NCBI GenBank assembly: GCA_017614715.1 | Contig: JAGABI010000007.1 | Location: 1 to 34,321, forward strand | DNA: 34,321 nt | Source: Bacteroidales bacterium | Lineage (GTDB): Bacteria > Bacteroidota > Bacteroidia > Bacteroidales > UBA932 | Direction of reading: 5' to 3' | Part shown: piece by piece, positions 8,639-31,422 of the stretch | How the letters are laid out: every line of letters begins with the position of its first letter | How positions within the stretch are numbered: the first letter of the stretch is position 1 | Notes under the pieces: model-generated | The model's database searches: none | What the model was told of the DNA's origin: nothing | Seen by the model: only the letters and a program-made list of their open reading frames with translations | Position numbers and translations under genes: made by a program

Positions 8639-11029
8639 ATGAACATTCGCACCATACTGCTGACCTTGTCGGCGCTGACAATAATCCTGACTTCCTGCAA
8701 GAGCGCATCCAAGCTGACTCCGTCCAACATAGACGAGGTTGTAAAAGCCATGACGCTGGAAGAAAAGGCCGCCCTCGTGGTAAGTTTCTTCGATTTTATG
8801 GGAGAAGACAGCACGGTGGTGATTCGCACCTGCCCCATAGAGCGGCTTGGCATACCTTCTGTGACGCTGGCTGCCGCCGATACGATAATGCCTCTTGGGG
8901 AGCGCTTCCCTTCGCCCTTGATGATGGCCTCCAGCTGGGATACGGAATTGATAGAGGAGGCCGCAAAGATGCAGGCACACCAGGCGGTGGATGCAGGAGT
9001 GGACGTGCTTCTGGCCCCTTCTATGAGTCTGATGCGCAACATTCTGGCGGGCGATGCAAGCAGCGATTTTTCCGAAGATCCGCTGGTGATTGGCGAAGCC
9101 TCGGCAGCCGTAGTGAGAGGTATCAACCAGACAGGGGCTGTATCGGCGCTGAAATATCTGGCTGCAGCCAATCAGGCTTCCTATAGCGATAAATACGACG
9201 CCTGCGTCTCTCCCAGAGCCCTCCGGGAGATGTACCTGCGCGGGTTTGAGATTGCCCTGGCAGAGAGCAAACCGGCAGCTGTGATGGCCGCCGGGAACAA
9301 GATCAACGGCACATGGGCATCTGCAAACAAGGATCTGCTGCAGCGCCTGTTGCGGGATGAGTGGAAGTACGACGGCGTAGTGATAGGCGGTTTCTCTGCA
9401 GACACGGTAGCGGCAGGGAAGATTGCCGCCGGCTGCGACCTGCTGTCGCCTGCATTTTCTGCGCAAAGCGATTCAATAGCAGCCTTCGTGGCAGACGGCC
9501 GCCTGAGCGAAGAAGCATTGAACCGTGCCGTCAAAGGCGTCCTGAAGATGATAGTTTCCACTCCCGGTTTCCACAATGGAGAAGGCGGTGCTGAAGATCA
9601 TAATGAACCCGATTTTGCAGCAGTTGCACGGAATGCAGCCGCCGACGGCATCATCCTTCTGGAAAACCGCTATTCGGCGCTGCCGCTTACCGACTCCCTG
9701 ACCGGATTCGTGAGTGTGTTCGAAGCTGCCAACGATTCCCTGTACGCCATCAAGCCTGCTCTTGAAGCGGCTCTTACAGAAGCCGGCTGCCGCATTTGCA
9801 GCGATGCCGACAGCAGCGACGTGGCCATCGTGGTCATTACCCGACAGAGCGGTCACGGCGACCGGGCTATAGTCGATTTCCTGCTTACACCTGAAGAAGA
9901 ACAACTGATAAACAGCACTTGCGCCGAATATCACGCAGACGACAAATATGTAATAGTGGTGCTCAATATTGACGCAGTAATCGAGACCTCCAGCTGGAAG
10001 GATAAACCGGACGCTATACTGCTGGCCTTTGCGCCGGGTGGAGAAGGGGCACACGCCCTCTCTGACGTCATCACCGGGGCAGTGAATCCGTCGGGTAAAC
10101 TCACGGTGACATTCCCCGAGCACTATATGTTCTCTCCTTCGTCGCGCAACTTCCCTGCAAGGCCCGATACGGCACTGTTCGAAAGAATACGTGCCGCTGC
10201 CGGATCTTCCGATGCCGGAAAAGGATTCGGACCGGCACGTCCCGGAGCGACGAGGCCTGGCGGTATGATGGGAATGCGTGGCGAAAGGCCCCGCCCGGGC
10301 CAGGCATCCGACACTTCACAAGCGGACCGTATGCCGCGCCGTACACGTTCGGATTATATGGTGAAGGTCGATTCTACGGTAATAGCTTCGCGCGGCGAAC
10401 GCAACGTAGATTATACCCTGTACCAGGAGGGCATATTCCTGGGTTATCGGTATTATACATCTTTCGAACGCCCTGTATCTTATCCTTTCGGCCACGGCCT
10501 GAGTTACACCTCATTTGAATATGACGAGCCGGAGGTCATACTCCGCCGCAATTCTATGAAAGTATTCGTCAAGATTACCAACACTGGCAGCTATGCCGGC
10601 CGTGAGGTGGCGCAGCTCTATGCCGTCACCCCCGAGAGCAGCCTGGACAAACCGCTGCTTATCTTGGCCGGATTTGCCAAGACTCCGAGCCTGGAACCGG
10701 GAGAATCCTGCACGGTATCGTTCACGGTGCCTTTCAAGGCGCTCTCCTCATTCAACAGCGCATCTTCTGCCTGGACAATCGATGCCGGCGCCTATATTCT
10801 CAAGGTGGGCGCTTCCTGCACCGACATCAGAAGCGAGGTCGCCGCCGTAATCAACGAATCTAATTCCTGGCAGACCCTTGATCTTTTCCAGCAGCAGTAC
10901 CCCATCAACGAGATTCACCTTCGCAGATCCATCTTCCGCGAAAGGGTGCGCGGCGGCGGACCCGCTTTGATGGATTCCATTCCTGCCGCTGTCGAGCAGC
11001 CTTCAGCTGCCACCGACAGCATAAAATAG
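8639..11029 (+). CDS. GH3-family lipoprotein with both catalytic residues apparently replaced
   Basis: A 796-residue protein with a lipoprotein signal peptide (ILTSC lipobox near residue 20). It has the full layout of family 3 glycoside hydrolases: TIM-barrel domain (about 30-310, with NGTWAS and the DGVV strand), C-terminal alpha/beta sandwich (about 340-500, with VVVLNIDAVIETSSW and NPSGKLTVTFP) and a fibronectin III-like domain (about 590-720, after the FPFGHGLSYT-like segment YPFGHGLSYTSFEY). The nucleophile Asp of the usual V-M/V-S-D-W motif aligns with Gly251 (VVIGGF), the usual KH pair is KY (172-173), and the acid/base Glu of SGEG aligns with His406 (SGHGDR). Residues about 521-571 form a Gly/Pro/Arg/Met-rich insertion. 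The fold assignment is secure; hydrolase activity is doubtful. It could be a carbohydrate-binding or structural surface protein. Confidence 0.85.
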   Translation: MNIRTILLTLSALTIILTSCKSASKLTPSNIDEVVKAMTLEEKAALVVSFFDFMGEDSTVVIRTCPIERLGIPSVTLAAADTIMPLGERFPSPLMMASSWDTELIEEAAKMQAHQAVDAGVDVLLAPSMSLMRNILAGDASSDFSEDPLVIGEASAAVVRGINQTGAVSALKYLAAANQASYSDKYDACVSPRALREMYLRGFEIALAESKPAAVMAAGNKINGTWASANKDLLQRLLRDEWKYDGVVIGGFSADTVAAGKIAAGCDLLSPAFSAQSDSIAAFVADGRLSEEALNRAVKGVLKMIVSTPGFHNGEGGAEDHNEPDFAAVARNAAADGIILLENRYSALPLTDSLTGFVSVFEAANDSLYAIKPALEAALTEAGCRICSDADSSDVAIVVITRQSGHGDRAIVDFLLTPEEEQLINSTCAEYHADDKYVIVVLNIDAVIETSSWKDKPDAILLAFAPGGEGAHALSDVITGAVNPSGKLTVTFPEHYMFSPSSRNFPARPDTALFERIRAAAGSSDAGKGFGPARPGATRPGGMMGMRGERPRPGQASDTSQADRMPRRTRSDYMVKVDSTVIASRGERNVDYTLYQEGIFLGYRYYTSFERPVSYPFGHGLSYTSFEYDEPEVILRRNSMKVFVKITNTGSYAGREVAQLYAVTPESSLDKPLLILAGFAKTPSLEPGESCTVSFTVPFKALSSFNSASSAWTIDAGAYILKVGASCTDIRSEVAAVINESNSWQTLDLFQQQYPINEIHLRRSIFRERVRGGGPALMDSIPAAVEQPSAATDSIK

Positions 11030-11030
11030 T

Positions 11031-11053
11031 AACCGGATTATTTCCGTTTTTTA
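11031..11053 (+). terminator. Candidate intrinsic terminator after the GH3 gene
   Basis: Just after the GH3 stop codon, AACCGGA and TTCCGTT form a short hairpin with one bulge around TTAT, followed by a run of six T. The stem is short, so efficiency is uncertain, but the place between the GH3 stop and the riboswitch promoter fits. Confidence 0.45.
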
Positions 11054-11064
11054 GTAATAATTGC

Positions 11065-11072
11065 TACTTTCG
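11065..11072 (+). promoter_or_regulatory. Candidate -7 element driving the cobalamin riboswitch
   Basis: TACTTTCG is a near match to TAnnTTTG. Transcription would begin about 6 bases downstream, at the first strand of the riboswitch P1 helix, which is where a riboswitch promoter should put it. Confidence 0.5.
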
Positions 11073-11077
11073 CATCG

Positions 11078-11238
11078 CAAATGCAGACAAGGGAAGTCAT
11101 GTGAGAATCATGCGCAGTACCCGCTGCTGTAAGTTCCGGCCTATATACAGGTCACAACGTCAGGTATCCTAAGCCACTGGCCACAGGCCGGGAAGGCGCC
11201 GGACGTAAGCGAACAAGCCAGAAGACCTCCTGCAATTG
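11078..11238 (+). ncRNA. Cobalamin (adenosylcobalamin-type) riboswitch
   Basis: The leader contains the conserved core blocks of the cobalamin riboswitch in order: AAGGGAA with a following GTGAGAATC block (about 11089-11109), GCGCAGTACCCGCTGCTGTAA-like block (about 11111-11131), GCCACTGG then GGGAAGGC (about 11174-11198), and the B12 box AAGCCAGAAGACCTCCTGC (about 11215-11233). Its ends pair: 11078-11086 (CAAATGCAG) is complementary to 11230-11238 (CTGCAATTG) with one mismatch, forming P1. In known cases ligand binding lowers expression of uptake genes by blocking translation or ending transcription. The short T-rich stretch after P1 (from 11237) could serve either mode. It precedes the DUF4465-btuG-btuB operon. 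Confidence 0.95.
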
Positions 11239-11284
11239 TTTTTAAATGTTGTACGGGACACTTACATTTTTAAAAAATTATAAA

Positions 11285-12133
11285 ATGAAAAAATCATTCA
11301 GATTTCTTGCATTTGCTGCCGTTGCAGCAATTACTCTTTTCTCTTGCGAAAAGGATCCTGTGGCTGAGACCGCTACCGTAGATTTCGAAGGTGCATATTG
11401 GAATGCACTTATCGACAATCCCCAGTATGGTGGCCCCCTGACTTACGGCACATACGACGATGCAACCTGGACCTGGTCTGGTGCAGAAGGTTATACCTGG
11501 ACCGATGCCAACACTACTCTGGGTTTTGACGGTTTTCCCGATGCATGGGGTTCAAGAAGCTTCTCCAGCGGTGGTGAGGTCGTTTCCAACTACGTTGTGG
11601 CTGACTATAAAGACGCCGGCTACCTGCGTCAGCTTGAAGTTCCCGTCGCACCCCGTGGTGGCAGCAACTTCATTGTTCACTACGGCAGTGTAGATCCCAC
11701 CAGCACAAAGGTAGATGCCGCTCCCGCATATACCAGGATAAGGTTTGCCGATAACAGCGAGCGGATTATCAAAAGCATAGACGTTTGCCTTACCAACTAT
11801 GTGCTTAACTCTTGCGTATATGGTGACGGCTTTGGATTTGGCCCTATCACCGGCTCCACAGCACTCTCCATCAAAGCTGTCGGTTTTGACGCCAAAGGTG
11901 TTGCAACCAAGTCATCTACAGTTGTAATCATAGACGGTAATGACGCTGAGGCCTACAAGGCCGGCACAAAGAAGGTCGCTTGGCGTACCTGGGATCTGAG
12001 CGCACTTGGGGCTGTAAACGGTATTGTTTTCTGCGTCCTCGGCACCGAAGATTGCTATGGTGAATACGGCTTCAACGCTCCCGCATACTTTGCATACGAC
12101 AACATAGTTGTTGAAAAACCTCTTGCAGAATAA
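11285..12133 (+). CDS. DUF4465-family surface lipoprotein, first gene of the B12 operon
   Basis: A 282-residue protein with a lipoprotein signal peptide (MKKSFRFLAFAAVAAITLFSC). Directly after the cysteine the sequence is EKD, similar to the lysine-plus-acidic lipoprotein export signal that sends Bacteroidota lipoproteins to the cell surface. The mature part opens VDFEGAYWNA, has Trp/Tyr/Gly-rich beta strands, and closes with WRTWDLSALGAVNGIVF, the tail YGFNAPAYFAYDNIVV, all typical of DUF4465. DUF4465 proteins recur next to B12 uptake genes in Bacteroidota. Start: ATG at 11285, 46 bases after the riboswitch; an in-frame ATG-like codon at 11246 would put a poor leader before the signal peptide. 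Its place immediately after the riboswitch implies a role in B12 capture or handling; that role is inference. Whether it belongs to the reported B12-binding BtuH group I cannot tell. Confidence 0.85.
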   Translation: MKKSFRFLAFAAVAAITLFSCEKDPVAETATVDFEGAYWNALIDNPQYGGPLTYGTYDDATWTWSGAEGYTWTDANTTLGFDGFPDAWGSRSFSSGGEVVSNYVVADYKDAGYLRQLEVPVAPRGGSNFIVHYGSVDPTSTKVDAAPAYTRIRFADNSERIIKSIDVCLTNYVLNSCVYGDGFGFGPITGSTALSIKAVGFDAKGVATKSSTVVIIDGNDAEAYKAGTKKVAWRTWDLSALGAVNGIVFCVLGTEDCYGEYGFNAPAYFAYDNIVVEKPLAE

Positions 12134-12151
12134 GAATAATATCATACTCAA

Positions 12152-13069
12152 ATGCGCAGACTCTGCAACATAGCACTTACGGCGGCAATCATATTCATAT
12201 GCAACGGTTGCAACTATCACAAGGTAATAGAAGATCCCTCCCTGGGCAAGTATTACCGCGCCGCAACCGCTGCCAGCAGTCCGTTTGCAAGCATAGTCTG
12301 CGAATACACGCCGGCACCGGGTCAGTTTATCGGGGATCCGGCGATTTTTCCGACAGTTATAGCAACACAAGATGCCGCATGCGCCTGGGCCAAAGAGAGA
12401 CTTGACGCCAACAAGTTTGTCAGCCTGGGCGCTTTTGGCGGCTTCATTGTGGTCGGATTCGACCATAGCATAGTAAACCTTGGCGGTTACGATTTTGCAA
12501 TTTACGGTAATGCCTTCCATGGGAACAGCGAACCCGGCATAGTCTGGGTTGCTCAAGATGCCAACGGCAACGGAATAGCCGATGATACATGGTACGAGCT
12601 CCGCGGAAGCGACACGTTTTCTGAATTCACAATCCACAATTATAGTGTGACTTACTATAAACCGACGCTGCCCGGACAAGACGTTAAATGGATAGACAGC
12701 GAGGGGGAGGAGGGTACCATAGACTACTTGCCTGCATATCACCAGCAGGTGAGCTACTATCCGGAGTGGATTACATCGGACCAATATACCCTCACCGGTA
12801 CCCGCCTGAAGGCGTTCAATTACGACAGTTCCGGAAACGGCTCAATGTGGATCAACCCTGATTACGATTGGGGATATGCCGACAATGCAAACGGCAACCT
12901 TTTCAAAATCAGCGATGCGATTGATGCGGAAGGGAATGCTGTCGATCTCAATTTCATCGATTTTATCAAGGTCCAGACGGCCCTCAATGCCAAGAGTGGC
13001 TGGGTGGGCGAACTCTCTACCGAGGTACTGGGATTCGAAGACCGTTCCATGACCGTCACAGTCAGATAA
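12152..13069 (+). CDS. Surface lipoprotein of B12 loci (cell-surface/PKD-annotated family)
   Basis: A 305-residue protein with a lipoprotein signal peptide ending FICNGC (Cys20). The mature sequence has a run typical of proteins found next to BtuG/BtuB in Bacteroidales: YTPAPGQFIG, FGGFIVVGFDHSIVN, YDFAIYGNAF and EPGIVWVAQDANGNGIADDTWYEL, the last with an Asp/Asn-rich loop that could bind calcium. The C-terminal part has FIKVQTALNAKSGWVGELSTEVLGFED. It starts 18 bases after the DUF4465 gene and ends 3 bases before btuG, so it is in the riboswitch-controlled operon. Molecular function is not known to me; a surface accessory role in vitamin capture is inferred from position and export signal. 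It is a second candidate for a B12-binding protein of the BtuH kind. Confidence 0.8.
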   Translation: MRRLCNIALTAAIIFICNGCNYHKVIEDPSLGKYYRAATAASSPFASIVCEYTPAPGQFIGDPAIFPTVIATQDAACAWAKERLDANKFVSLGAFGGFIVVGFDHSIVNLGGYDFAIYGNAFHGNSEPGIVWVAQDANGNGIADDTWYELRGSDTFSEFTIHNYSVTYYKPTLPGQDVKWIDSEGEEGTIDYLPAYHQQVSYYPEWITSDQYTLTGTRLKAFNYDSSGNGSMWINPDYDWGYADNANGNLFKISDAIDAEGNAVDLNFIDFIKVQTALNAKSGWVGELSTEVLGFEDRSMTVTVR

Positions 13070-13072
13070 CCC

Positions 13073-14140
13073 TTGAAACTGATACGGTATATTCTACTGC
13101 TGCTCCCGCTGGCCACAGCCTGCATGAGCTATGGCCCGGGGGAAGAGGAGAGTTTCAGCATAGATCTCTCCAAAAGGGGGTTGTTTGTTATGTGCGAGGG
13201 AAATTATATGTACGGCAATGCATCCCTTTCATATTACGACCCTGATGAAAAGCAGGTTCAGAATGAAATATTTGCACGCAGCAATGCCTTCCCGATAGGG
13301 GATGTAGTGCAATCCATGGTGATGCACGACGGCCTGGGATGGGTGGTCGTGAACAATTCCGGGGTAATATTTGCCATAGATCCCGCCACATTCCGCGAAG
13401 TGCGGCGCATCACCGGTTTCACCAGTCCGCGATACATTCATTTTCTGGGAGAGCGCAAGGCTTATGTAACCCAGATATGGGATCCTCGCATCTATGTGGT
13501 GGATTCACAAACCTGCACAATCACAGATTACATTGATACCGGTATGGACTTCGAGACAGGTTCCACGGAGATGATGGTCCAGATCGGAAAATATGTCTAT
13601 GTCAACTGCTGGTCATACCAGAACCGCATCCTGATGATAGACACGGAGACAGATACTATAACAAAAGAACTGGTTGTCGGCATCCAGCCCTCTTCACTGG
13701 TGAAGGACTGTAACGATAAACTCTGGACAATTACTGACGGCGGCTACGAAGGGAGCCCTTATGGACATGAGAGGGCGACCCTGTCGCGGCTGGATGCCGA
13801 CGACTTTGTTATAGAACAGACTTTTCTTTTTGAGGCCGGCGACACCCCACGTGCACTTGCAACCAACGGCGACGGCACCGTCATATACTGGATTAACGGC
13901 GGCATTTACGCAATGAAGGCCTCGGACGAGGCTTTACCTGTCCAGCCGCTGATAAGCGCCAAAAACGAGCTTTTTTATTCGCTTACGGTGGATCCTGTAA
14001 ACGGTGACATATACGCAAGCGATGCTATAGACTATACTCAGAATGGTATCGTTAAACGGTACTCGCCGGAAGGCATCATGCTGGACACTTTTTCCGTAGG
14101 AATCAATCCCGGTAATTTTTGCTGGAGGGAGTCGATGTGA
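13073..14140 (+). CDS. btuG: BtuG-type vitamin B12-capturing surface lipoprotein
   Basis: A 355-residue lipoprotein with signal peptide ending LATAC (Cys17), followed by a predicted seven-bladed beta-propeller (YncE/DUF5074-like). Characteristic parts are GLFVMCEGNYMYGNASLSYYDP, GWVVVNNSGVIFAIDP, YVTQIWDPRIYVVD, YVNCWSYQNRILMIDTETD and the last blade DIYASDAIDYTQNGIVKRYSPEG. Known BtuG proteins bind corrinoids with extreme affinity at the cell surface and form a lid on BtuB. The start codon is TTG at 13073, the only one that yields a complete signal peptide, 3 bases after the previous stop and without a visible Shine-Dalgarno sequence, so translation may depend on the upstream gene. It overlaps btuB by 4 bases, which supports the BtuB-BtuG complex. 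Confidence 0.9.
   Translation: MKLIRYILLLLPLATACMSYGPGEEESFSIDLSKRGLFVMCEGNYMYGNASLSYYDPDEKQVQNEIFARSNAFPIGDVVQSMVMHDGLGWVVVNNSGVIFAIDPATFREVRRITGFTSPRYIHFLGERKAYVTQIWDPRIYVVDSQTCTITDYIDTGMDFETGSTEMMVQIGKYVYVNCWSYQNRILMIDTETDTITKELVVGIQPSSLVKDCNDKLWTITDGGYEGSPYGHERATLSRLDADDFVIEQTFLFEAGDTPRALATNGDGTVIYWINGGIYAMKASDEALPVQPLISAKNELFYSLTVDPVNGDIYASDAIDYTQNGIVKRYSPEGIMLDTFSVGINPGNFCWRESM
14124..14129 (+). promoter_or_regulatory. Ribosome binding site deciding the btuB start
   Basis: GGAGGG lies inside the 3' end of btuG, 7 bases before the GTG at 14137. Strong Shine-Dalgarno sequences are rare in this window, so this one favours the GTG over the in-frame TTG at 14119, which lies upstream of it. 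Confidence 0.6.
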
Positions 14141-16218
14141 GAACCATAATAAAAATCGTTTCTGTGTCCGCAACTCTGCTGGGGTTTTCAGCGGGAGTGC
14201 TCGCGCAGAACGAATGGTGGAACAACGACCCCTCTTACGTAACGCCGATAGAAGAATCTGCCGTAGTTGCAGAACGGCCGCTTGGAGAAATAGGTCAGCA
14301 GAAGACCTCTCTCGATTCTGCTGCGCTCTGCCTGACGGTATCCCAGTCAATGGCCGATGTGCTCACTTATAACAGCTCCATCTTTGTAAAGCAATACGGA
14401 CGCGGCAGCCTTGCCACGGTATCCTTCCGCGGCACCGCAGCTTCACACACACAGGTCACCTGGAACGGAATGAAAATCAATTCGCCGATGCTGGGCATGA
14501 CGGACTTCAGCCTGATACCCTCATATTTCACGGACCGGGCCACCTTGCTCCATGGCAGCTCCTCGCTGGCCGTTACGGGTGGCGGGCTGGGAGGAGCCAT
14601 CATGCTGGAGACAGCTCCGTCGCAGAAGCCGGGGTGGGATATAGACGCCGTCATAGGTGCCGGTTCGTACAGCACGTGGGACGGCTTCCTGAGAGTAAAC
14701 TATGGTGGCCATAAACTGAAAAGCTCAACAAGGGTGGCGGCAACCATAAGCAAAAACGATTTCACATACCGCAATTATAAAAAGAAAGAATATACCTACG
14801 ACAAGGCCGGTATCCCCAACGGCAGTTACTATCCAATTGACACCAACCGTTGCGGGAGCATCCGTGACCTCCATTTGATGCAGGATTTTTATTACACCGC
14901 CGATGGCGGAAACAAGCTGAGCCTTAATGTATGGCTGATGAGTTCACTGCGCGGAGTCCCTTTGCTGAGTGTAGATTACAGGAGCGGAGTGGGGTATATC
15001 AACCAGCAGAACGAGAACACATTACGCGCTGTTACCGGATGGGAAAAATCAGGTAATGATTATATTGTATCGGCAAAGGCCGGATGGCTGCATACCAGGC
15101 AGGGATACGACTTTGCCAGGGACAAAGGTAACGGAGAGATGGCCACTATGATTGCCAGCCGCAGCATTATCAATACTTTCCACGCCTTCACCCAGGGGAA
15201 GTGGTTCGCCGCAGAACGACTGATGCTCACAGCACAGGTGGCGGCATATCAGCATTTTGTGAAGAGCACCGACAGGAACGCCCTCTCTATGGTAAGCAGC
15301 ACTGCCATCACTCCGGAAAAGATAGCGATTGGCTACGACGAAGCCCGTTTTGAGAGCAGTGCATACTTGTCTGTCAAGTGGAACGCGACAAAAAATCTTG
15401 GTTTCTCTGCAGCCCTTCGCGAGGAATTATATGGAGACAAACTTTCACCAATAATTCCGGTAATTAATGCCGATTATCTTATTAACAAATATTTAACAGC
15501 AAAGATTTCTGCAAGTCGCAACTATCGTTACCCGACTCTGAACGACCTCTATTTTCTCCCCGGCGGCAACCCTGACCTGCTCCCCGAGAGCGGATACAGT
15601 TACGATGCCGGTATCGCTTTCTCCAGGTCAAAAGAGGGCAGATGGAAGTTCAATGCCTCCGCCACGTGGTTCGACTCATATATTGACAACTGGATTGTAT
15701 GGATCCCGACGTTCAAGGGTTACTGGACCCCCCGTAACGTCAAGAAAGTACACGCATACGGGGTGGAGACAAGGGCAGATGGAAAGTTGAATCTCGGGAG
15801 TGACTGGCAGGTGAGCGGCAGCGGCTGTTTTGCCTGGACCCCCTCCATAAACCATGGCGACCCTGCCGACTGGGCCGACGAAGCTATCGGAAAGCAACTG
15901 GTATATATCCCGCAATTCTCTGCATCATCAGTAATTGCACTTGCTTACCGGAATTGGCGCTTAAGCTATAAATGGTGCTGGTACAGCGAACGGTATACAA
16001 CCAGCGACAACGATATAACGACCCGCATCGGCAGAGTATTGCCTTACATCATGAACGACATTGTCCTCGAAAGGCGTTTTGCAGTCAAGTGGAGCAGTAT
16101 TTCCCTGAAACTTGCCGTAAACAACCTGTTCGACGAGGAGTACGAATCGGTATTGAACCATCCGATGCCTGGTCGCAATTTTGAATTTTTTATAGAAGTG
16201 ACGCCATCATTTAAATAG
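14137..16218 (+). CDS. btuB: BtuB-type TonB-dependent outer-membrane B12 transporter
   Basis: A 693-residue outer-membrane receptor. Signal peptide MRTIIKIVSVSATLLGFSAGVLAQ, then a TonB-box-like stretch (EESAVVAERP) and a plug domain (about 50-150) with VKQYGRGSLATVSFRGTAAS, VTWNGMKINSPMLGMTDFSLIP and GSSSLAVTGGGLGGAIML. The rest is a 22-strand barrel with YRYPTLNDLYFLPGGNPDLLPE and the C-terminal VNNLFDEEYESVLNHPMPGRNFEFFIEV. There is no N-terminal carboxypeptidase-like domain of the SusC kind. I chose the GTG at 14137 because it has a good Shine-Dalgarno sequence and overlaps the btuG stop (GTGA). Specificity for corrinoids follows from the riboswitch and the btuG neighbour rather than from motifs. 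Energy comes from TonB-ExbBD encoded elsewhere. Confidence 0.93.
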   Translation: MRTIIKIVSVSATLLGFSAGVLAQNEWWNNDPSYVTPIEESAVVAERPLGEIGQQKTSLDSAALCLTVSQSMADVLTYNSSIFVKQYGRGSLATVSFRGTAASHTQVTWNGMKINSPMLGMTDFSLIPSYFTDRATLLHGSSSLAVTGGGLGGAIMLETAPSQKPGWDIDAVIGAGSYSTWDGFLRVNYGGHKLKSSTRVAATISKNDFTYRNYKKKEYTYDKAGIPNGSYYPIDTNRCGSIRDLHLMQDFYYTADGGNKLSLNVWLMSSLRGVPLLSVDYRSGVGYINQQNENTLRAVTGWEKSGNDYIVSAKAGWLHTRQGYDFARDKGNGEMATMIASRSIINTFHAFTQGKWFAAERLMLTAQVAAYQHFVKSTDRNALSMVSSTAITPEKIAIGYDEARFESSAYLSVKWNATKNLGFSAALREELYGDKLSPIIPVINADYLINKYLTAKISASRNYRYPTLNDLYFLPGGNPDLLPESGYSYDAGIAFSRSKEGRWKFNASATWFDSYIDNWIVWIPTFKGYWTPRNVKKVHAYGVETRADGKLNLGSDWQVSGSGCFAWTPSINHGDPADWADEAIGKQLVYIPQFSASSVIALAYRNWRLSYKWCWYSERYTTSDNDITTRIGRVLPYIMNDIVLERRFAVKWSSISLKLAVNNLFDEEYESVLNHPMPGRNFEFFIEVTPSFK

Positions 16219-16225
16219 TGATTCA

Positions 16226-17389
16226 ATGAATTATAATAAACAATATTTCCTCAGCATAGCAGTACTAATCGCTTTGGCAACACCTATACTCATCGGCTGC
16301 AGGGGAAGCCACACCCGGCAAGGTGCGGAGGCCGGCACTGTAGATTCGCTGCTATATGCAGAAGGGCTGGAAATAGCTTATTTCAGCAATTTCACCCGGG
16401 TATCATTACGTGACCCCTGGGATACCGTAAAAACCCGTAAAACGTACATATTAGCCCCCAAAACCGACATCAAAGACAATCATTCCCTCCGGGACAGTCT
16501 TTCAAAGCTTGGAATACTGATAGGCACCCCTGTGGAGAGAGCCGTAATCTACACCTCAGTACATGTGGCGATGGCCGCTCAACTGGGCGTACTTGATCAG
16601 GTCTGCGGCGTATGCGAACCTCAATACATTACTTCAAATGAAGTGTTAGACCGTATTAATAATCACCTCATTGCGGATTTGGGCCAATCCACATCTCCAA
16701 ATGTAGAAAAGATAATTGACCTTGGTTGCGACGTGATAATTGCATCACCGTTTGAAAACAGCGGATACGGTGCTGCCGAAAAGCTTGGAATCCCTATTGT
16801 GGAGGCCGCCGATTATATGGAACACCATCCGCTCGGGCGCACAGAATGGGTGAAATTCTATGGACTGCTCTTTGGGTGCAAAGATATCGCCCAGGCACAG
16901 TTTGCCTCGACAATGGCTCGATATGATTCACTGAAAAATATTTGTTCTACAGTTAGTTATCGTCCCTCAGTTGTACTTGAACGTAAATGGGGACAGACGT
17001 GGGGGGTACCGGCTGCCAGGAGTTATATAGGCACTCTGCACCGTGACGCAGGTGCCGATTATGTTTTCAGCGATATCACCTCCTCCAGCAGTGTCCACAT
17101 GTCATTCGAGCAGGTTTTCGAAAGGGGATGCGATGCAGACTACTGGCTGTTCAAGTATAGCGGCGGCAAACCAATGACACTCGGTGACCTGAAACGCGAA
17201 TATCTCCCTTATTCACACTTCAAGGCATATAAAACTCAGTGTATCTATGCATGTAACACACTTGTAAGCAGTTATTACGACGATATTACGCTCCATCCGG
17301 ACCGTATTTTGGAAGATTTGATGCATATCTACCATCCTGAACTGAGTCCAGATTATCAGATGTGCTACTATTTCAGATTGTTGGAGTAG
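16226..17389 (+). CDS. btuF: BtuF-like ABC substrate-binding lipoprotein
   Basis: A 387-residue lipoprotein (signal peptide ending LIGC, Cys near residue 25) of the periplasmic binding protein family for B12 and siderophores (PF01497). Recognisable parts: RAVIYTSVHVAMAAQLGVLDQVCGVCEP, the helix and strand LIADLGQSTSPNVEKIIDLGCDVIIASP, GIPIVEAADYMEHHPLGRTEWVKFYG, and late WGVPAARSYIGTLHRDAGADYVF. It would receive the vitamin from BtuB in the periplasm and dock to the inner-membrane permease. Start 7 bases after the btuB stop, so it is the last gene of the riboswitch operon. Proteins of this family with heme or iron-chelate ligands exist, so specificity is from context. It ends 1 base before the end of the convergent permease gene. 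Confidence 0.87.
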   Translation: MNYNKQYFLSIAVLIALATPILIGCRGSHTRQGAEAGTVDSLLYAEGLEIAYFSNFTRVSLRDPWDTVKTRKTYILAPKTDIKDNHSLRDSLSKLGILIGTPVERAVIYTSVHVAMAAQLGVLDQVCGVCEPQYITSNEVLDRINNHLIADLGQSTSPNVEKIIDLGCDVIIASPFENSGYGAAEKLGIPIVEAADYMEHHPLGRTEWVKFYGLLFGCKDIAQAQFASTMARYDSLKNICSTVSYRPSVVLERKWGQTWGVPAARSYIGTLHRDAGADYVFSDITSSSSVHMSFEQVFERGCDADYWLFKYSGGKPMTLGDLKREYLPYSHFKAYKTQCIYACNTLVSSYYDDITLHPDRILEDLMHIYHPELSPDYQMCYYFRLLE

Positions 17390-17390
17390 A

Positions 17391-18413
17391 TTAATTAAAG
17401 TAGTGCAGCCGCTTCCGGCTCATAATCACATAGATTATAACAGGCGCCCCCACAATAGAGGTAATAGCATTCAGGGGCAGCGAACCACCAGCAGAACTTA
17501 TATTTGCCAACAGATTACATAATAGGGCAATAACGCTGCCGACCAGAATCGTTACTGGAAGCAGATGACGATGGTCGCTTCTGTTCAGTAACAAGCGGGC
17601 TATATGCGGCACGGCCAATCCGATAAAGGAGATTGGTCCGCAGAATGCAGTAACTGTAGCCGTAAGGAGACTGGTCACAAGCAGTATTGCCAATCGGGAC
17701 TGCTTAACATTTATCCCGAGGTTAGCGGCGTATGAATCTCCTAATAACAGAGCATTAAGAGGCTTTACCAAAAGCAATGCTCCAATAAGGCCAAAGGCGC
17801 AGAATGATACAAACCACGGCAGTTTGTCCATAGAGACGCTGCCAAAATCGCCCATTCCCCACATTACATACTGGTGCACTTTGTCTGCGGAGGCATTGAA
17901 ATTGAGAATCGATATCAAAGACGATGCGACATAGCCCACCATGATACCAATTATCAGAAGCATTACGTTGTTCCGAACCTTACGGGAGAACCATATTATT
18001 ATGGCAAGTACGACGGCGGCTCCAAAAAATGCTGCGAATATGATAGTTATGTAATTGGTGGTGGAGATATACAGCATAGCCAGGGCAACGCCCAGGTTTG
18101 CACCGTCGCTGATACCGAGTATGGAGGGGCCGGCAAGGGGGTTGGAAAACAGGGTCTGGAGCTGAAGCCCGCTCACCGCAAGGGCCGCACCGCCCAGTAG
18201 GGCCGTGACTGCTTGGGGAAGACGGGAGCCGAGCACTATCTGATTCCAGCTCTGCTGAGTTGACAACTTGCCAAACAGTATATGCAGTGCATCAGTCAGT
18301 GGAATCTTCACAGGGCCTGCCACTATGTTGGCCAAGAACAAAAACACAAGAGTTACACCCGTTGCAATATAGGGTATTATATATTTCCTGCTGCCGGTCT
18401 TGCTTCTCTTCAT
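17391..18413 (-). CDS. btuC: BtuC/FecCD-family ABC transporter permease
   Basis: A 340-residue inner-membrane protein of the FecCD family with about nine to ten hydrophobic segments. Diagnostic parts are GSRLPQAVTALLGGAALAVSGLQLQTLFSNPLAGPSILGISDGANLG, GPISFIGLAVPHIARLL and SLPLNAITSIVGAPVIIYVI near the C terminus. It would form the membrane channel of a B12 or iron-chelate importer, working with an ATPase not found in this window. Given the neighbouring btuF, cobalamin is the likely substrate. It is on the opposite strand to the riboswitch operon, 16 bases downstream of an LPG-synthase-like gene, and no riboswitch lies upstream of that gene, so its control differs. An iron-siderophore permease is the main alternative. 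Confidence 0.85.
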   Translation of the reverse strand: MKRSKTGSRKYIIPYIATGVTLVFLFLANIVAGPVKIPLTDALHILFGKLSTQQSWNQIVLGSRLPQAVTALLGGAALAVSGLQLQTLFSNPLAGPSILGISDGANLGVALAMLYISTTNYITIIFAAFFGAAVVLAIIIWFSRKVRNNVMLLIIGIMVGYVASSLISILNFNASADKVHQYVMWGMGDFGSVSMDKLPWFVSFCAFGLIGALLLVKPLNALLLGDSYAANLGINVKQSRLAILLVTSLLTATVTAFCGPISFIGLAVPHIARLLLNRSDHRHLLPVTILVGSVIALLCNLLANISSAGGSLPLNAITSIVGAPVIIYVIMSRKRLHYFN

Positions 18414-18429
18414 TTTTGTAAATCCTGCC

Positions 18430-19413
18430 CTATGGATTGTTTACACTGTTAGATTGTGTGCCCATGTCACGCATCCAGTGTAAGTATGCAACAAGGCCTA
18501 TAACTATTACTATAACAGCGTGAATCTCATGATTGAGTGTCGCATACAATATGCCGGTATCCCAGTTGTAGCCATACACGCCAACTGCAGATGCAACAAG
18601 ATAATGGTACGCCCCGACACTCCCCGGTACCGGTACTATGGAAGCAACGTTTCCCACCATGGAGAAGAACAGGGCATCAATCATATCAAGCCCGTCCAAA
18701 GCAGGCATAGCCTTGATAACGCAGAAGCACATCAACACATACAATGTCCATATCAACACGGTAGTAAGTGCGATGAGCAGTTTGTTCCTGCTCTTGCGGA
18801 ACACAGTGAGTCCGGCCCATATCCTGGAGAGTGATTCAGCTATCTTGCGACAAATGACATATCTGTCGCGAAACCGGAAAATCGCATAAATGGCAACCGC
18901 CAGTATAATAATAGAAGATATAAGAACTACCCAGAAAATCCGGTTGGCAGAAAGCGGGTTAATTATGTTGTCCATGAAATAGCTGCCAAAGCGGTCCCAT
19001 CCCGTAAACAAGGAGATAATTGCCATGACAATCAGGGCAAAGAGGTCCCAGAGGCGTTCGCAAAACATCGTTCCGATGGATTTATCGTATTCAAGCTTCT
19101 TTGATGTTACATACCCGCAACGGAGAAACTCCCCGCTACTAGGTAACGCCACACTGGCAAGATTGCCAACGTTGATTGCATCCCACACCCGGATCGTCTT
19201 TATTTCGGGATCAAAGGGAATCAGCATCTCCTTCCACCTGACAGTACGCAGCAGTAGGGCGGTGGCTGAAATGATGCAGAAGACGACCACCCAGAACCAC
19301 CTCGTCTGTGCCAGGCCATCTACAAACGCACGCCATTCCACTTTACGGAAGGCAAAGTAGACCAGCACGGCAGCCAGCGCAAACAGCAAAACGTACTTGA
19401 GGATCTTTTTCAT
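18430..19413 (-). CDS. LPG-synthase transmembrane-domain protein (UPF0104/AglD2-like)
   Basis: A 327-residue integral membrane protein with about eight hydrophobic segments, matching the lysylphosphatidylglycerol synthase TM-region family (PF03706). Signature parts are RTVRWKEML, INVGNLASVALPSSGEFLRCGY, CERLWDLFALIVM and VPVPGSVGAYHYLVASAVGVYG. It lacks the soluble aminoacyl-transfer domain of MprF, so it is a stand-alone flippase-like domain; members may move lipids or lipid-linked substrates, but its substrate is unknown. Start ATG at 19413; the TTG at 19422 overlaps a promoter element. The predicted mRNA would begin almost at this ATG (short leader or leaderless). btuC-like permease follows after 16 bases in the same operon, an odd pairing with no clear functional logic. 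Confidence 0.87.
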   Translation of the reverse strand: MKKILKYVLLFALAAVLVYFAFRKVEWRAFVDGLAQTRWFWVVVFCIISATALLLRTVRWKEMLIPFDPEIKTIRVWDAINVGNLASVALPSSGEFLRCGYVTSKKLEYDKSIGTMFCERLWDLFALIVMAIISLFTGWDRFGSYFMDNIINPLSANRIFWVVLISSIIILAVAIYAIFRFRDRYVICRKIAESLSRIWAGLTVFRKSRNKLLIALTTVLIWTLYVLMCFCVIKAMPALDGLDMIDALFFSMVGNVASIVPVPGSVGAYHYLVASAVGVYGYNWDTGILYATLNHEIHAVIVIVIGLVAYLHWMRDMGTQSNSVNNP

Positions 19414-19419
19414 ACTTCG

Positions 19420-19427
19420 CAAAAGTA
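19420..19427 (-). promoter_or_regulatory. Candidate -7 element, LPG-synthase-like/permease operon
   Basis: The minus strand reads TACTTTTG, an exact TAnnTTTG, only 6 bases before the ATG at 19413. Transcription from it would start at or within a few bases of the start codon. Confidence 0.5.
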
Positions 19428-19438
19428 CTAATTATTTA

Positions 19439-19471
19439 CAAAAAGAGAGCGCCTCTCCTTGGAGGGGCGCT
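19439..19471 (-). terminator. Intrinsic terminator after the repeat-rich protein gene
   Basis: On the minus strand AGCGCCCCTCC, a four-base turn, and GGAGAGGCGCT form a strong GC-rich hairpin with one mismatch (plus-strand 19448-19471), followed by CTCTTTTTG. This is a classic rho-independent terminator in the right place after the stop at 19492. Confidence 0.8.
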
Positions 19472-19491
19472 GACTATATTGTGTTGACATC

Positions 19492-20397
19492 TTATCTGCT
19501 GCGACGGCCGGTGCTGCTTCCTGCTGTGTTGGAACTGCGACGGGCTGCGCTGCTTGTTGCATTGCTGGAGCTGCGACGCTCGGGAGCCACTGTGTGGGTG
19601 CTGCGGGTAGTATTGCCGTTGGTGGCTTTTGCAGTGCCATGGCTGCCGGTATTCCTGTTAGCAGGTTTAGTGGTTGCATTCACATTGCCGGAATTGTGGT
19701 TGCCGCTTGGCTTGTCGCCAACTTTGGGGGTTTTATTTACATTCCCGGGGTTGTGGTTGCCGGTGTTCTTGTTGCCAGGCTTGTTGGCTCCATTCACGTT
19801 GCCGGTATTGTGGTTGCCAGACGGTTTAGCAGGATTGTTGCCATGGTTGTGGTTGTCGGCTACATTGCCGTGGTGTCCATTGTTATGGTTGCCTTTCGGC
19901 TTGTCACCGATTTTGTGGGCGCCATCCCTGTGGCGTTTGTCGGCAAAGTGCATGTTGTTATGGGGCTTCTCGTGATACCGCCTTGTGCCCACTCTGTAGG
20001 ATGCATAAACCCTGGGAGGATTGGGACGGAAGAAACGGTCGCGTGCATAACGGTCATAGATTGTGAAATACAGCGCACTTTTGCGGATGACAACCGGTCT
20101 GTAGAAATACTCGGACTCGAGGAAAAGTTTATACTGCCAGCTGGTAAGTACATAGCCGAGTTCATTTGCACGGCGGTTCCAGTTGATTCCGAGGATGTCG
20201 GTAGTACCAATCAGGCCGTTGAAGTAGTCGAGATTGATTTCATAGACAGCGTCGTACTGGTAATCGGTAAGGTCCAGTTCATAGGCCATCTTATCGGTGA
20301 GGAAAAGCGCTTCGCTGCGTGCCCTTTCGTAGCTCATAGCGTTAGCGTTCACCACTGCTGCGATAACGATCGCGGTAACGAGTAACATCTTTTTCAT
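19492..20397 (-). CDS. Secreted protein with Spy-like LTxxQ motifs and Asn/Gly/His repeats
   Basis: A 301-residue exported protein, not assigned to a named family. Residues 1-20 are a Sec signal peptide ending ANA. Residues about 25-140 are a folded domain rich in Tyr and Asp with two LTxxQ motifs (LTDYQ at 43-47, LTSWQ at 85-89), the hallmark spacing seen in Spy/CpxP-type periplasmic proteins. Residues 167-261 are low-complexity repeats of the type KPSGNHNTGNVN, at least five imperfect copies. The final 40 residues are Ser/Arg/Asn-rich and basic. The repeat region should be disordered and could bind metal through histidines or interact with the cell wall, which is inference. The gene has its own strong terminator. 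An inverted repeat sits directly before its start codon. Confidence 0.75.
   Translation of the reverse strand: MKKMLLVTAIVIAAVVNANAMSYERARSEALFLTDKMAYELDLTDYQYDAVYEINLDYFNGLIGTTDILGINWNRRANELGYVLTSWQYKLFLESEYFYRPVVIRKSALYFTIYDRYARDRFFRPNPPRVYASYRVGTRRYHEKPHNNMHFADKRHRDGAHKIGDKPKGNHNNGHHGNVADNHNHGNNPAKPSGNHNTGNVNGANKPGNKNTGNHNPGNVNKTPKVGDKPSGNHNSGNVNATTKPANRNTGSHGTAKATNGNTTRSTHTVAPERRSSSNATSSAARRSSNTAGSSTGRRSR
19590..19900. repeat. Degenerate coding repeat for GNHNxGNVN units
   Basis: Short imperfect direct repeats built on CATTGCCGG-ATTGTGGTTGCC-like units (plus-strand view) with 36-75 base spacing encode the Asn/Gly/His-rich segment of the secreted protein. Unit length can change by slippage or recombination, so copy number may vary between strains. 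Confidence 0.7.
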
Positions 20398-29973: not shown

Positions 29974-31422
29974 TCACGCAAACGGGAAGAACCTGGTAAG
30001 CCAGAAGAATCCCAGCACAGCTCCTACGACACCTACAATGATGCCGACTTTAGCCATCTCACTTGTCTTGACCAGGCCGGTGGAGGCAGCGATTGCGTTA
30101 GGCGGTGTGGAGATAGGGAAGACCATGGCAAGTGATGCACACATTGCAATCATAGTGATTAACGCCTGAGTTCCGCCCATTGCGGCAAAAGAGGCGTTGT
30201 TGGCTGCCGTGGGGCTGGACATACCTTTAGCCACCACAACCAGGATAGGTATAAGCAGGGCAGCGGTAGCAGAGTTGCTGATAAAGTTAGAGAGCAGGTA
30301 GCAAACCAGGCCGGCAAAGAAGAATATAGACAATACGCGCATCGAACCGAAGGGGATGGAATCAATCATTGTCTTGTCAAGGCCGGTTCCCTCCATAGCG
30401 GTTCCAAGTGCAAAACCTCCGGCCACCAACCATAGCACTGTCCAGTTTATCTCCTTTATATCGTCTTTAGTAAAGATTCCCGTTATCGTAAGCACCACCA
30501 GCGGAATCAGCGCCACTATGTTTGAATTGATGCCTGTCAGGCTCTCCGTAACCCACAGCAATATAGTACCGAAAAGGGTTATCCAAACCACATAGGTTCT
30601 CCAATCCACAGGGCGCGTATTATCAGGGATTTCCAGCACCAGCTTCTTGGCCTTGAAGGGGAAGAAGAACTGCAGCAGCACCCAGGTCACCAGAACCATA
30701 ATCAACACGTAAGGAATCATCCTGACCGACCACTGCATAAAGGTGACATCGTATCCCGCCTCTGAGATAAAGCGGACAGCTGTCGCATTGGGGGGAGTGC
30801 CGATCGGCGTGCCTATACCGCCAATGTTGGCGGCAATCGGGATAGCCAGGGCAAGTCCCACCTTGCCCTTGTCGTCGTTTGGCAGGGCAGAAAGCACCGG
30901 TGCCAGGAATGCGAGCATCATGGCAGCCGTGGCGGTGTTTGACATAAACATGGAGAATACTGATATTACCACCAGAAAGCCCAGCAGCACCATCCTGGGG
31001 TTAGTCCCGAAGGGCTTGAGCAGGGCGCGGGCCAAAGTGTGGTCCAGGCCATATTTTGCCACAACGATGGCCAGCACGAAACCGCCCAGGAAGAGCATAA
31101 TTATCGGGTCGGCGAACGACGCCATCAGCAACTTGTAATCTACCAGCGTACCGAACTTTGGATCGCACAAGAAACCGATACCCTTGTTTGAGACGGTCAG
31201 AAGGGATAACACTATCACCAGCAGCGACGTTATCCAGTTTGGGATAATTTCAAACATCCACATCAGCGCCGCAAAAACAAATATGGCAATCACACGCTGC
31301 TGGACAACAGTAAGCTCCTGAATCCCGAAAAACTCAGTCGGAACCAGCCAGAGGAACAGCGTAACCGCCAGTACTACAGGAAGCAGAATAAACAACCTGA
31401 CATTGAATCCATTCTTGCCCAT
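29974..31422 (-). CDS. DASS/SLC13-family sodium:dicarboxylate symporter
   Basis: A 482-residue inner-membrane transporter with about eleven to twelve hydrophobic segments, of the divalent anion:sodium symporter family. Both Ser-Asn-Thr type substrate motifs are present: MSNTATAAMM and ISNSATAALL. Others: the entry MWMFEIIPNWITSLLVIVL, GGIGTPIGTPPNA, WLVAGGFALGTAMEGTGLDK and MVFPISTPPNAIAAST. Substrates in the family are succinate, fumarate, malate, citrate or sulfate; the GTPPN loops suggest di- or tricarboxylates. Its ATG overlaps the stop of the small upstream lipoprotein by one base (TAATG), so translation is probably coupled. Confidence 0.92.
   Translation of the reverse strand: MGKNGFNVRLFILLPVVLAVTLFLWLVPTEFFGIQELTVVQQRVIAIFVFAALMWMFEIIPNWITSLLVIVLSLLTVSNKGIGFLCDPKFGTLVDYKLLMASFADPIIMLFLGGFVLAIVVAKYGLDHTLARALLKPFGTNPRMVLLGFLVVISVFSMFMSNTATAAMMLAFLAPVLSALPNDDKGKVGLALAIPIAANIGGIGTPIGTPPNATAVRFISEAGYDVTFMQWSVRMIPYVLIMVLVTWVLLQFFFPFKAKKLVLEIPDNTRPVDWRTYVVWITLFGTILLWVTESLTGINSNIVALIPLVVLTITGIFTKDDIKEINWTVLWLVAGGFALGTAMEGTGLDKTMIDSIPFGSMRVLSIFFFAGLVCYLLSNFISNSATAALLIPILVVVAKGMSSPTAANNASFAAMGGTQALITMIAMCASLAMVFPISTPPNAIAASTGLVKTSEMAKVGIIVGVVGAVLGFFWLTRFFPFA

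Follow-up and report, generated by a model that had tools for sequence, protein, structure and literature searches.

The window analysed here is a 34,321-nucleotide stretch of DNA from a Bacteroidales bacterium, taken from an assembly (G000) of 2.0 Mb in 69 contigs that is 92.9% complete; of the named records found, the nearest is a Bacteroidales MAG that came from sheep reticulum. Five plus-strand genes stand directly on the 3′ side of a cobalamin riboswitch, with intergenic gaps of 18, 3, −4, and 7 nt (for the starts chosen), and the RF00174 match together with the ORF and Pfam calls confirmed the riboswitch and five tightly packed genes described in the initial annotation. The first gene (btuJ-like, 11285–12133, +) encodes a DUF4465 lipoprotein of 282 residues with a lipobox at Cys21 (PF14717, E 1.2e-24), and the second (btuH-like, 12152–13069, +) encodes a stand-alone BtuH domain lipoprotein of 305 residues with a lipobox at Cys20 and no PKD stalk, identified by a phmmer match to 7biz. 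These are followed by btuG (13073–14140, +), which has a TTG start and encodes a beta-propeller surface lipoprotein (PF16819, E 6.7e-20), by btuB (about 14137–16218, +; we chose the start at 14137, and the ORF list gives 14119), which encodes a TonB-dependent transporter with plug and barrel (PF07715 and PF00593), and by a btuF-like gene (16226–17389, +) for a binding protein with a lipobox at Cys25, placed by eye (PF01497, E 2.6e-21). The Pfam names obtained for the five products were DUF4465, none, DUF5074/BtuG, TonB-dependent receptor, and periplasmic binding protein. A btuC-like permease gene (17391–18413, −; PF01032, E 5e-81) converges on the btuF-like gene at a distance of 1 nt. DUF4465, BtuH, BtuG, and FecCD (the btuC-like permease) each have a single match in the assembly.

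No btuL is present between btuH and btuG, which are just 3 nt apart, and neither btuD nor btuX was found among the window proteins searched. A repeat search of positions 10700–19500 gave nothing of note. An alternative ATG for the btuJ-like gene at 11246 is unlikely, as it falls within the riboswitch match, and a terminator-like hairpin with a U-rich tail in the btuJ signal-peptide coding region (11313–11330) was set aside because one such hairpin against 0.4 expected is not beyond chance.

The riboswitch match extends from 11044 to 11251 (+), with a score of 72 bits relative to the gathering score of 31.5 (E 4.5e-16). A Bacteroidetes-type −7-like promoter element, TACTTTCG, is located at 11065–11072 (+) and follows the pattern TAnnTT(T/C)G, the Bacteroidetes −7 consensus being TAnnTTTG. 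All 27 riboswitch regions inspected (22 BtuJ operons, the window included, and five symporter genes) have this pattern within 70 nt on the 5′ side of the aptamer core, compared to 1.9 expected from a Markov simulation; the T/C alternative was allowed only after the window had been inspected, and the strict TAnnTTTG is present in 24 of the 27. The distance from the element to the GGGAA core is 24–25 nt in the window and in the related loci L140–L146, L170, and L162, 52–53 nt in L147–L153 and L167, 43–44 nt at the five symporters, 36 nt in L155, 43 nt in L156, and 63 nt in L154; the core of L160 was not properly located.

The position of the −7-like element, combined with the usual spacing from such an element to the transcription start, places the expected start near 11075–11079, and the 5′ end given by Rfam (11044) therefore looks too far upstream. 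Transcription probably starts at about 11075–11079, close to the left boundary of 11078 originally drawn for the locus, and the aptamer as probably transcribed occupies 11075–11251 (+), as judged from the promoter element position, the P1 pairing, and the relatives. The P1 that we propose pairs 11077–11086 (GCAAATGCAG) with 11230–11239 (CTGCAATTGT), by eye and with one mismatch, and a compensatory change in it was seen between L141 (GCATAA/TTATGC) and L145 (GCATTA/TAATGC). The P1 of Rfam is disfavoured, because its 9-bp 5′ strand precedes the −7-like element and is not conserved in L140, a locus with a 91% identical BtuH. The window taken alone speaks against our reading, in that the upstream helix of Rfam has 9 bp (shuffled mean 5.8) whereas the new P1 has 5 bp in its uninterrupted part (shuffled mean 5.1), and so the new P1 draws its support from the promoter element and the relatives. 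If the −7-like element is the promoter, the 5′ strand of the Rfam P1 would be untranscribed and the aptamer would be compact and without P2; by eye, P2 appears to be absent from the riboswitch in this clade.

The product of the btuJ-like gene begins MKKSFRFL...LFSC-EKD, and the acidic C-E-K-D export signal noticed initially is thus correct. It scored 88.1 bits against PF14717 (DUF4465; cut-off 25 bits), and a single-sequence phmmer search matched BtuJ2 of Bacteroides thetaiotaomicron (9i2l) with an E value of 3.3e-5. A profile (A1) of 19 sequences, consisting of the window BtuJ and 18 relatives, matched six solved chains, four of which are named DUF4465, including 9i2l (6e-28), 9fct (5e-15), and 9hmu. 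Excerpts of the paper on these structures describe 9i2l, 9fct, and 9hmu as B12-bound BtuJ2, BtuJ1, and D5EK51, and report B12 binding for all eight DUF4465/BtuJ members studied (PMC13398666). In the window protein, the HI loop reads N264-A-P-A-Y268; Tyr268 does not vary among the 19 sequences, and the conserved Thr of this loop is replaced by Ala (NAPAY compared to NTPAY). The DE-loop Tyr corresponds to Y172, which at least 90% of these sequences share, and Y113, which aligns with the AB-loop Tyr, is Ser in the close relatives L140 and L141. The protein resembles the BtuJ/DUF4465 (IPR027828) jelly rolls 9fct, 9i2l, and 9hmu in its Pfam match, profile matches, and HI- and DE-loop tyrosines, but it belongs to a divergent branch: the DUF4465 scores in the genus are 65–97 bits (19 of 20 matches, the remaining one 140), whereas those outside the genus are 110–190 bits, with two exceptions at 55 and 27. 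As a predicted member of the augmented beta-jelly-roll family, the window BtuJ is expected to bind B12.

Scans of the second lipoprotein against Pfam and NCBIfam gave no family match, whereas phmmer matched it to BtuH2 (7biz, E 1e-82) and to the H domain of BtuG1 (8blw_B, E 8e-62), with residues 40–298 aligning to the BtuH domain of about 270 residues in 7biz. The suspicion in the initial annotation that one of the two lipoproteins is of the BtuH type was thus right, and it is the second one. Six polar and two van der Waals B12 contact residues of BtuH2 are named in the excerpted text of PMC8941943. Five of the six polar contacts are kept in the window protein (Gln333 as Q58, Asn399 as N120, His476 as H197, Trp511 as W233, and Trp577 as W284), the sixth, Tyr510, being M232; of the van der Waals residues, Phe401 is kept as F122 and Leu578 is V285. 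The lipobox (...NGC-NYHK, by eye) has no acidic residue right after the Cys. The Asp/Asn-rich loop that had been pointed out is present as QDANGNGIADD, and D136, N138, and D145 are invariant in 19 sequences. The window BtuH is also expected to bind B12, as judged from this alignment.

The search of both leading lipoproteins against known families that had been proposed at the outset therefore matched BtuJ (PF14717) and BtuH (7biz), and the idea that either represents a new family was rejected on the basis of the PF14717, 7biz, and solved BtuJ profile matches. By homology, both belong to B12-binder families characterised in 2022–2026, and their description as poorly described is outdated, since these families are treated in PMC8941943, PMC12751083, and PMC13398666.

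BtuG matched solved BtuG beta-propeller chains (8bmx_D, E 5e-137), and BtuB matched the solved BtuB of BtuBG complexes (8bmx_C, E 9e-224; 8p98_A, 3.5e-216), the 8bmx chains being those of the deposited BtuBG work according to excerpts of PMC10404256. The BtuB score against the equivalog TIGR01779 was 70.6 bits, below the curated cut-off of 599.7 bits, and the score against NCBIfam NF007926 was also far below the cut-off. For the BtuF-like protein, the family (PF01497) was assigned from sequence, and the putative B12 specificity from gene context.

The genomic context of the two binders was evaluated in 60 genomes, of which 27 had a BtuH match and 37 a DUF4465 match. At 27 BtuH loci that were fetched besides that of the window, there were BtuG or BtuB matches (tblastn, E 1e-4) in 25, a riboswitch in 24, and BtuJ in 21; the BtuH match of G013 lay outside the set of fetched loci. 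The exceptions were L157, with J and H only, and L159, with H alone near a contig end, and L166, on a short contig, has G and B without a riboswitch. The order riboswitch-J-H-G-B-F-C(−) is common to seven genomes of the genus, that of the window included. In the named genomes, all 18 loci had a riboswitch, BtuG, or BtuB match (L072, L074, L077, and L079 by the riboswitch alone, and L084 by weak TonB-receptor matches only), where riboswitches were sought with cmscan at 11 of the 18 loci and with a B12-box pattern at all 18, and L067 and L068 are probably the same genomes as G006 and G010. Homologues lying mostly outside B12 loci, the case that the initial annotation held against its own proposal, is not what was found, as 25 of the 27 BtuH loci hold BtuG or BtuB. 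The family matches and this linkage support by homology the proposal that the two lipoproteins may be extra surface B12 binders, with homologues that sit in B12 loci.

In the sister genomes L147–L153, both binders are longer than in the window, and in the longer forms that were scanned (L147 and L069) BtuJ carries a DUF4988 stalk and BtuH carries PKD_3 domains. In 20 of 21 loci, J and H belong to the same length class, short or long (some starts were adjusted by eye, and G028 and G002 were left out). This match in architecture was rejected as independent evidence, because a tree built from 19 BtuH domains requires just one change to the long form, and a single event could thus account for it.

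Taken together, the gene content and order, the families, the contact residues, and the linkage observed here make it very probable that the locus is a Bacteroidales B12 uptake operon of the operon-2 type (riboswitch, btuJ, btuH, btuG, btuB, and btuF), devoted to surface capture followed by import. By analogy with characterised homologues, from which B12 binding, surface location, and repression by B12 would follow, a low cellular cobamide level would permit expression of the operon through the riboswitch, and BtuJ (the DUF4465 jelly roll) and BtuH would catch B12 as surface lipoproteins. We infer that B12 might then be passed from BtuJ and BtuH to BtuG, the lid on BtuB, and that any role of vesicles would be of the same conjectural kind. 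BtuB would take B12 inward using TonB energy, and BtuF would take it for import by way of BtuC and an ATPase; no ATPase was found among the window genes searched.

The initial annotation had also suggested that the two lipoproteins load BtuG. Such loading has already been proposed, as a supply of BtuBG by lipoproteins of this kind in excerpts of PMC10404256 and as a relay from BtuJ on vesicles to BtuH and then to BtuBG in excerpts of PMC12751083; for the window, a relay is conjecture. The further argument of the initial annotation, that the genes nearest the riboswitch would be expressed at a high level, is unsupported: in B. thetaiotaomicron, BtuJ2 heads operon 2 as listed, but it ranks very low by iBAQ in the proteomics of PMC10404256 and was undetected in cells according to PMC12751083. 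Among the proteins of the three B. thetaiotaomicron loci, its paralogue BtuJ1 is probably the most abundant. In PMC12751083, a strain without operons 1 and 3 and without btuJ2, btuH2, and btuL outgrew the wild type at low B12, which means that these binders are not a simple advantage to individual cells.

An alternative, also suggested by the initial annotation, is that the two lipoproteins divide the substrates, one taking cobalamin and the other cobamides with other lower ligands or incomplete corrinoids, which would widen the range without any relay. Preferences could differ because the lower-ligand loop points outward in B12 bound to BtuJ and BtuG and inward in B12 bound to BtuH (PMC12751083, in excerpt), but BtuH2 has been argued to contact mainly parts that cobamides share (PMC8941943, in excerpt), and we consider this explanation unlikely. 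It is very improbable that both lipoproteins no longer bind B12 and have a different function, for example a structural one or one in the release of vesicles: BtuL and BtuK2 of B12 loci showed no binding (PMC12751083, in excerpt), and some contacts are changed here (HI-loop Thr to Ala, BtuH Tyr510 to Met), but most named contact residues are kept in both proteins, all eight DUF4465 members studied bound B12 (PMC13398666, in excerpt), and the H domain of BtuGH, with Thr at the Tyr510 position, binds alone (PMC12751083, in excerpt).

Besides the riboswitch of the operon, just one cobalamin riboswitch was detected in the assembly (G000:C40:54112-54328, −; 96.5 bits), and it ends 36 nt before a gene for a DASS-family symporter (TIGR00785; L004:12559-14076, −), behind which lies a Porin_O_P protein. 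When 25 riboswitches not associated with btuJ were followed (24 in the genus and one outside), five were found to precede a DASS symporter, in G000, G006, G007, G017, and G021, at a spacing of 36–37 nt; the symporters of these five genomes are 86–92% identical, with a porin behind each. In another genus, L185 has a 58% identical symporter that is also preceded by a riboswitch. Among 28 symporter matches, a riboswitch was located upstream in G000, G006, G017, and L185, and behind the gene in L181, which indicates that most relatives of the symporter are without a switch (cmscan was used at 20 of the 28 loci; for five more, L192, L194, and L199–L201, the call came only from a pattern search, and this search had overlooked L185). 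The solved relatives of the symporter include sodium-coupled citrate and dicarboxylate carriers, with phosphate carriers further down the list. A second DASS/CitMHS transporter in the window (29974–31422, −) is 50% identical to the riboswitch-controlled one and has no riboswitch nearby.

The pairing of riboswitch and symporter suggests, from gene arrangement, B12-responsive carboxylate transport. A methylmalonyl-CoA mutase is encoded in the genome. A search of G000 for MetH found none, and its lack is probably an assembly gap, because several relatives have frames of MetH length with a B12-binding domain (judged by length); the notion that the mutase is the only B12 client was dropped for the same reason. 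Propionate production by rumen Xylanibacter depends on cobalamin, according to excerpts of PMC11575231. A tentative scheme, possible but doubtful, is that the cobalamin riboswitches of this ruminant-gut lineage govern both B12 scavenging and a DASS dicarboxylate-type symporter with its porin: a shortage of B12 would stall the mutase and stop propionate formation, succinate would build up, and the derepressed symporter would let the carboxylate leave or be exchanged. If so, B12 sensing would be tied directly to carboxylate traffic and would switch not only vitamin uptake but also the fermentation product. Literature searches for cobalamin riboswitches linked to dicarboxylate or anion carriers gave nothing relevant among the papers listed, and we regard this arrangement as more novel than the B12 operon, which is of a type already described.

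The closest comparison for that operon is operon 2 of B. thetaiotaomicron, given as btuJ2-H2-L-G2-B2-F-C-D-X in the excerpts of PMC12751083. The two are alike in having a cobalamin riboswitch followed by J, H, G, B, and F in this order, with a BtuG and BtuB that match the solved BtuBG. The window differs in that it has no btuL, its BtuH is stalkless, and btuC is convergent on the opposite strand; counterparts of btuD and btuX were not seen among the window proteins searched. The window BtuH is stand-alone and without PKD domains like BtuH1 (BT_1488), whereas BtuH2 (BT_1956), as excerpted in PMC8941943, has PKD domains and a Tyr510 where the window protein has Met. The operon thus fits a well-characterised class, and it extends operon-2-type BtuJ-BtuH-BtuBG scavenging to a ruminant-gut genus of Bacteroidales; the form found there is compact, its binders lack stalks, and its riboswitch seems to lack P2.
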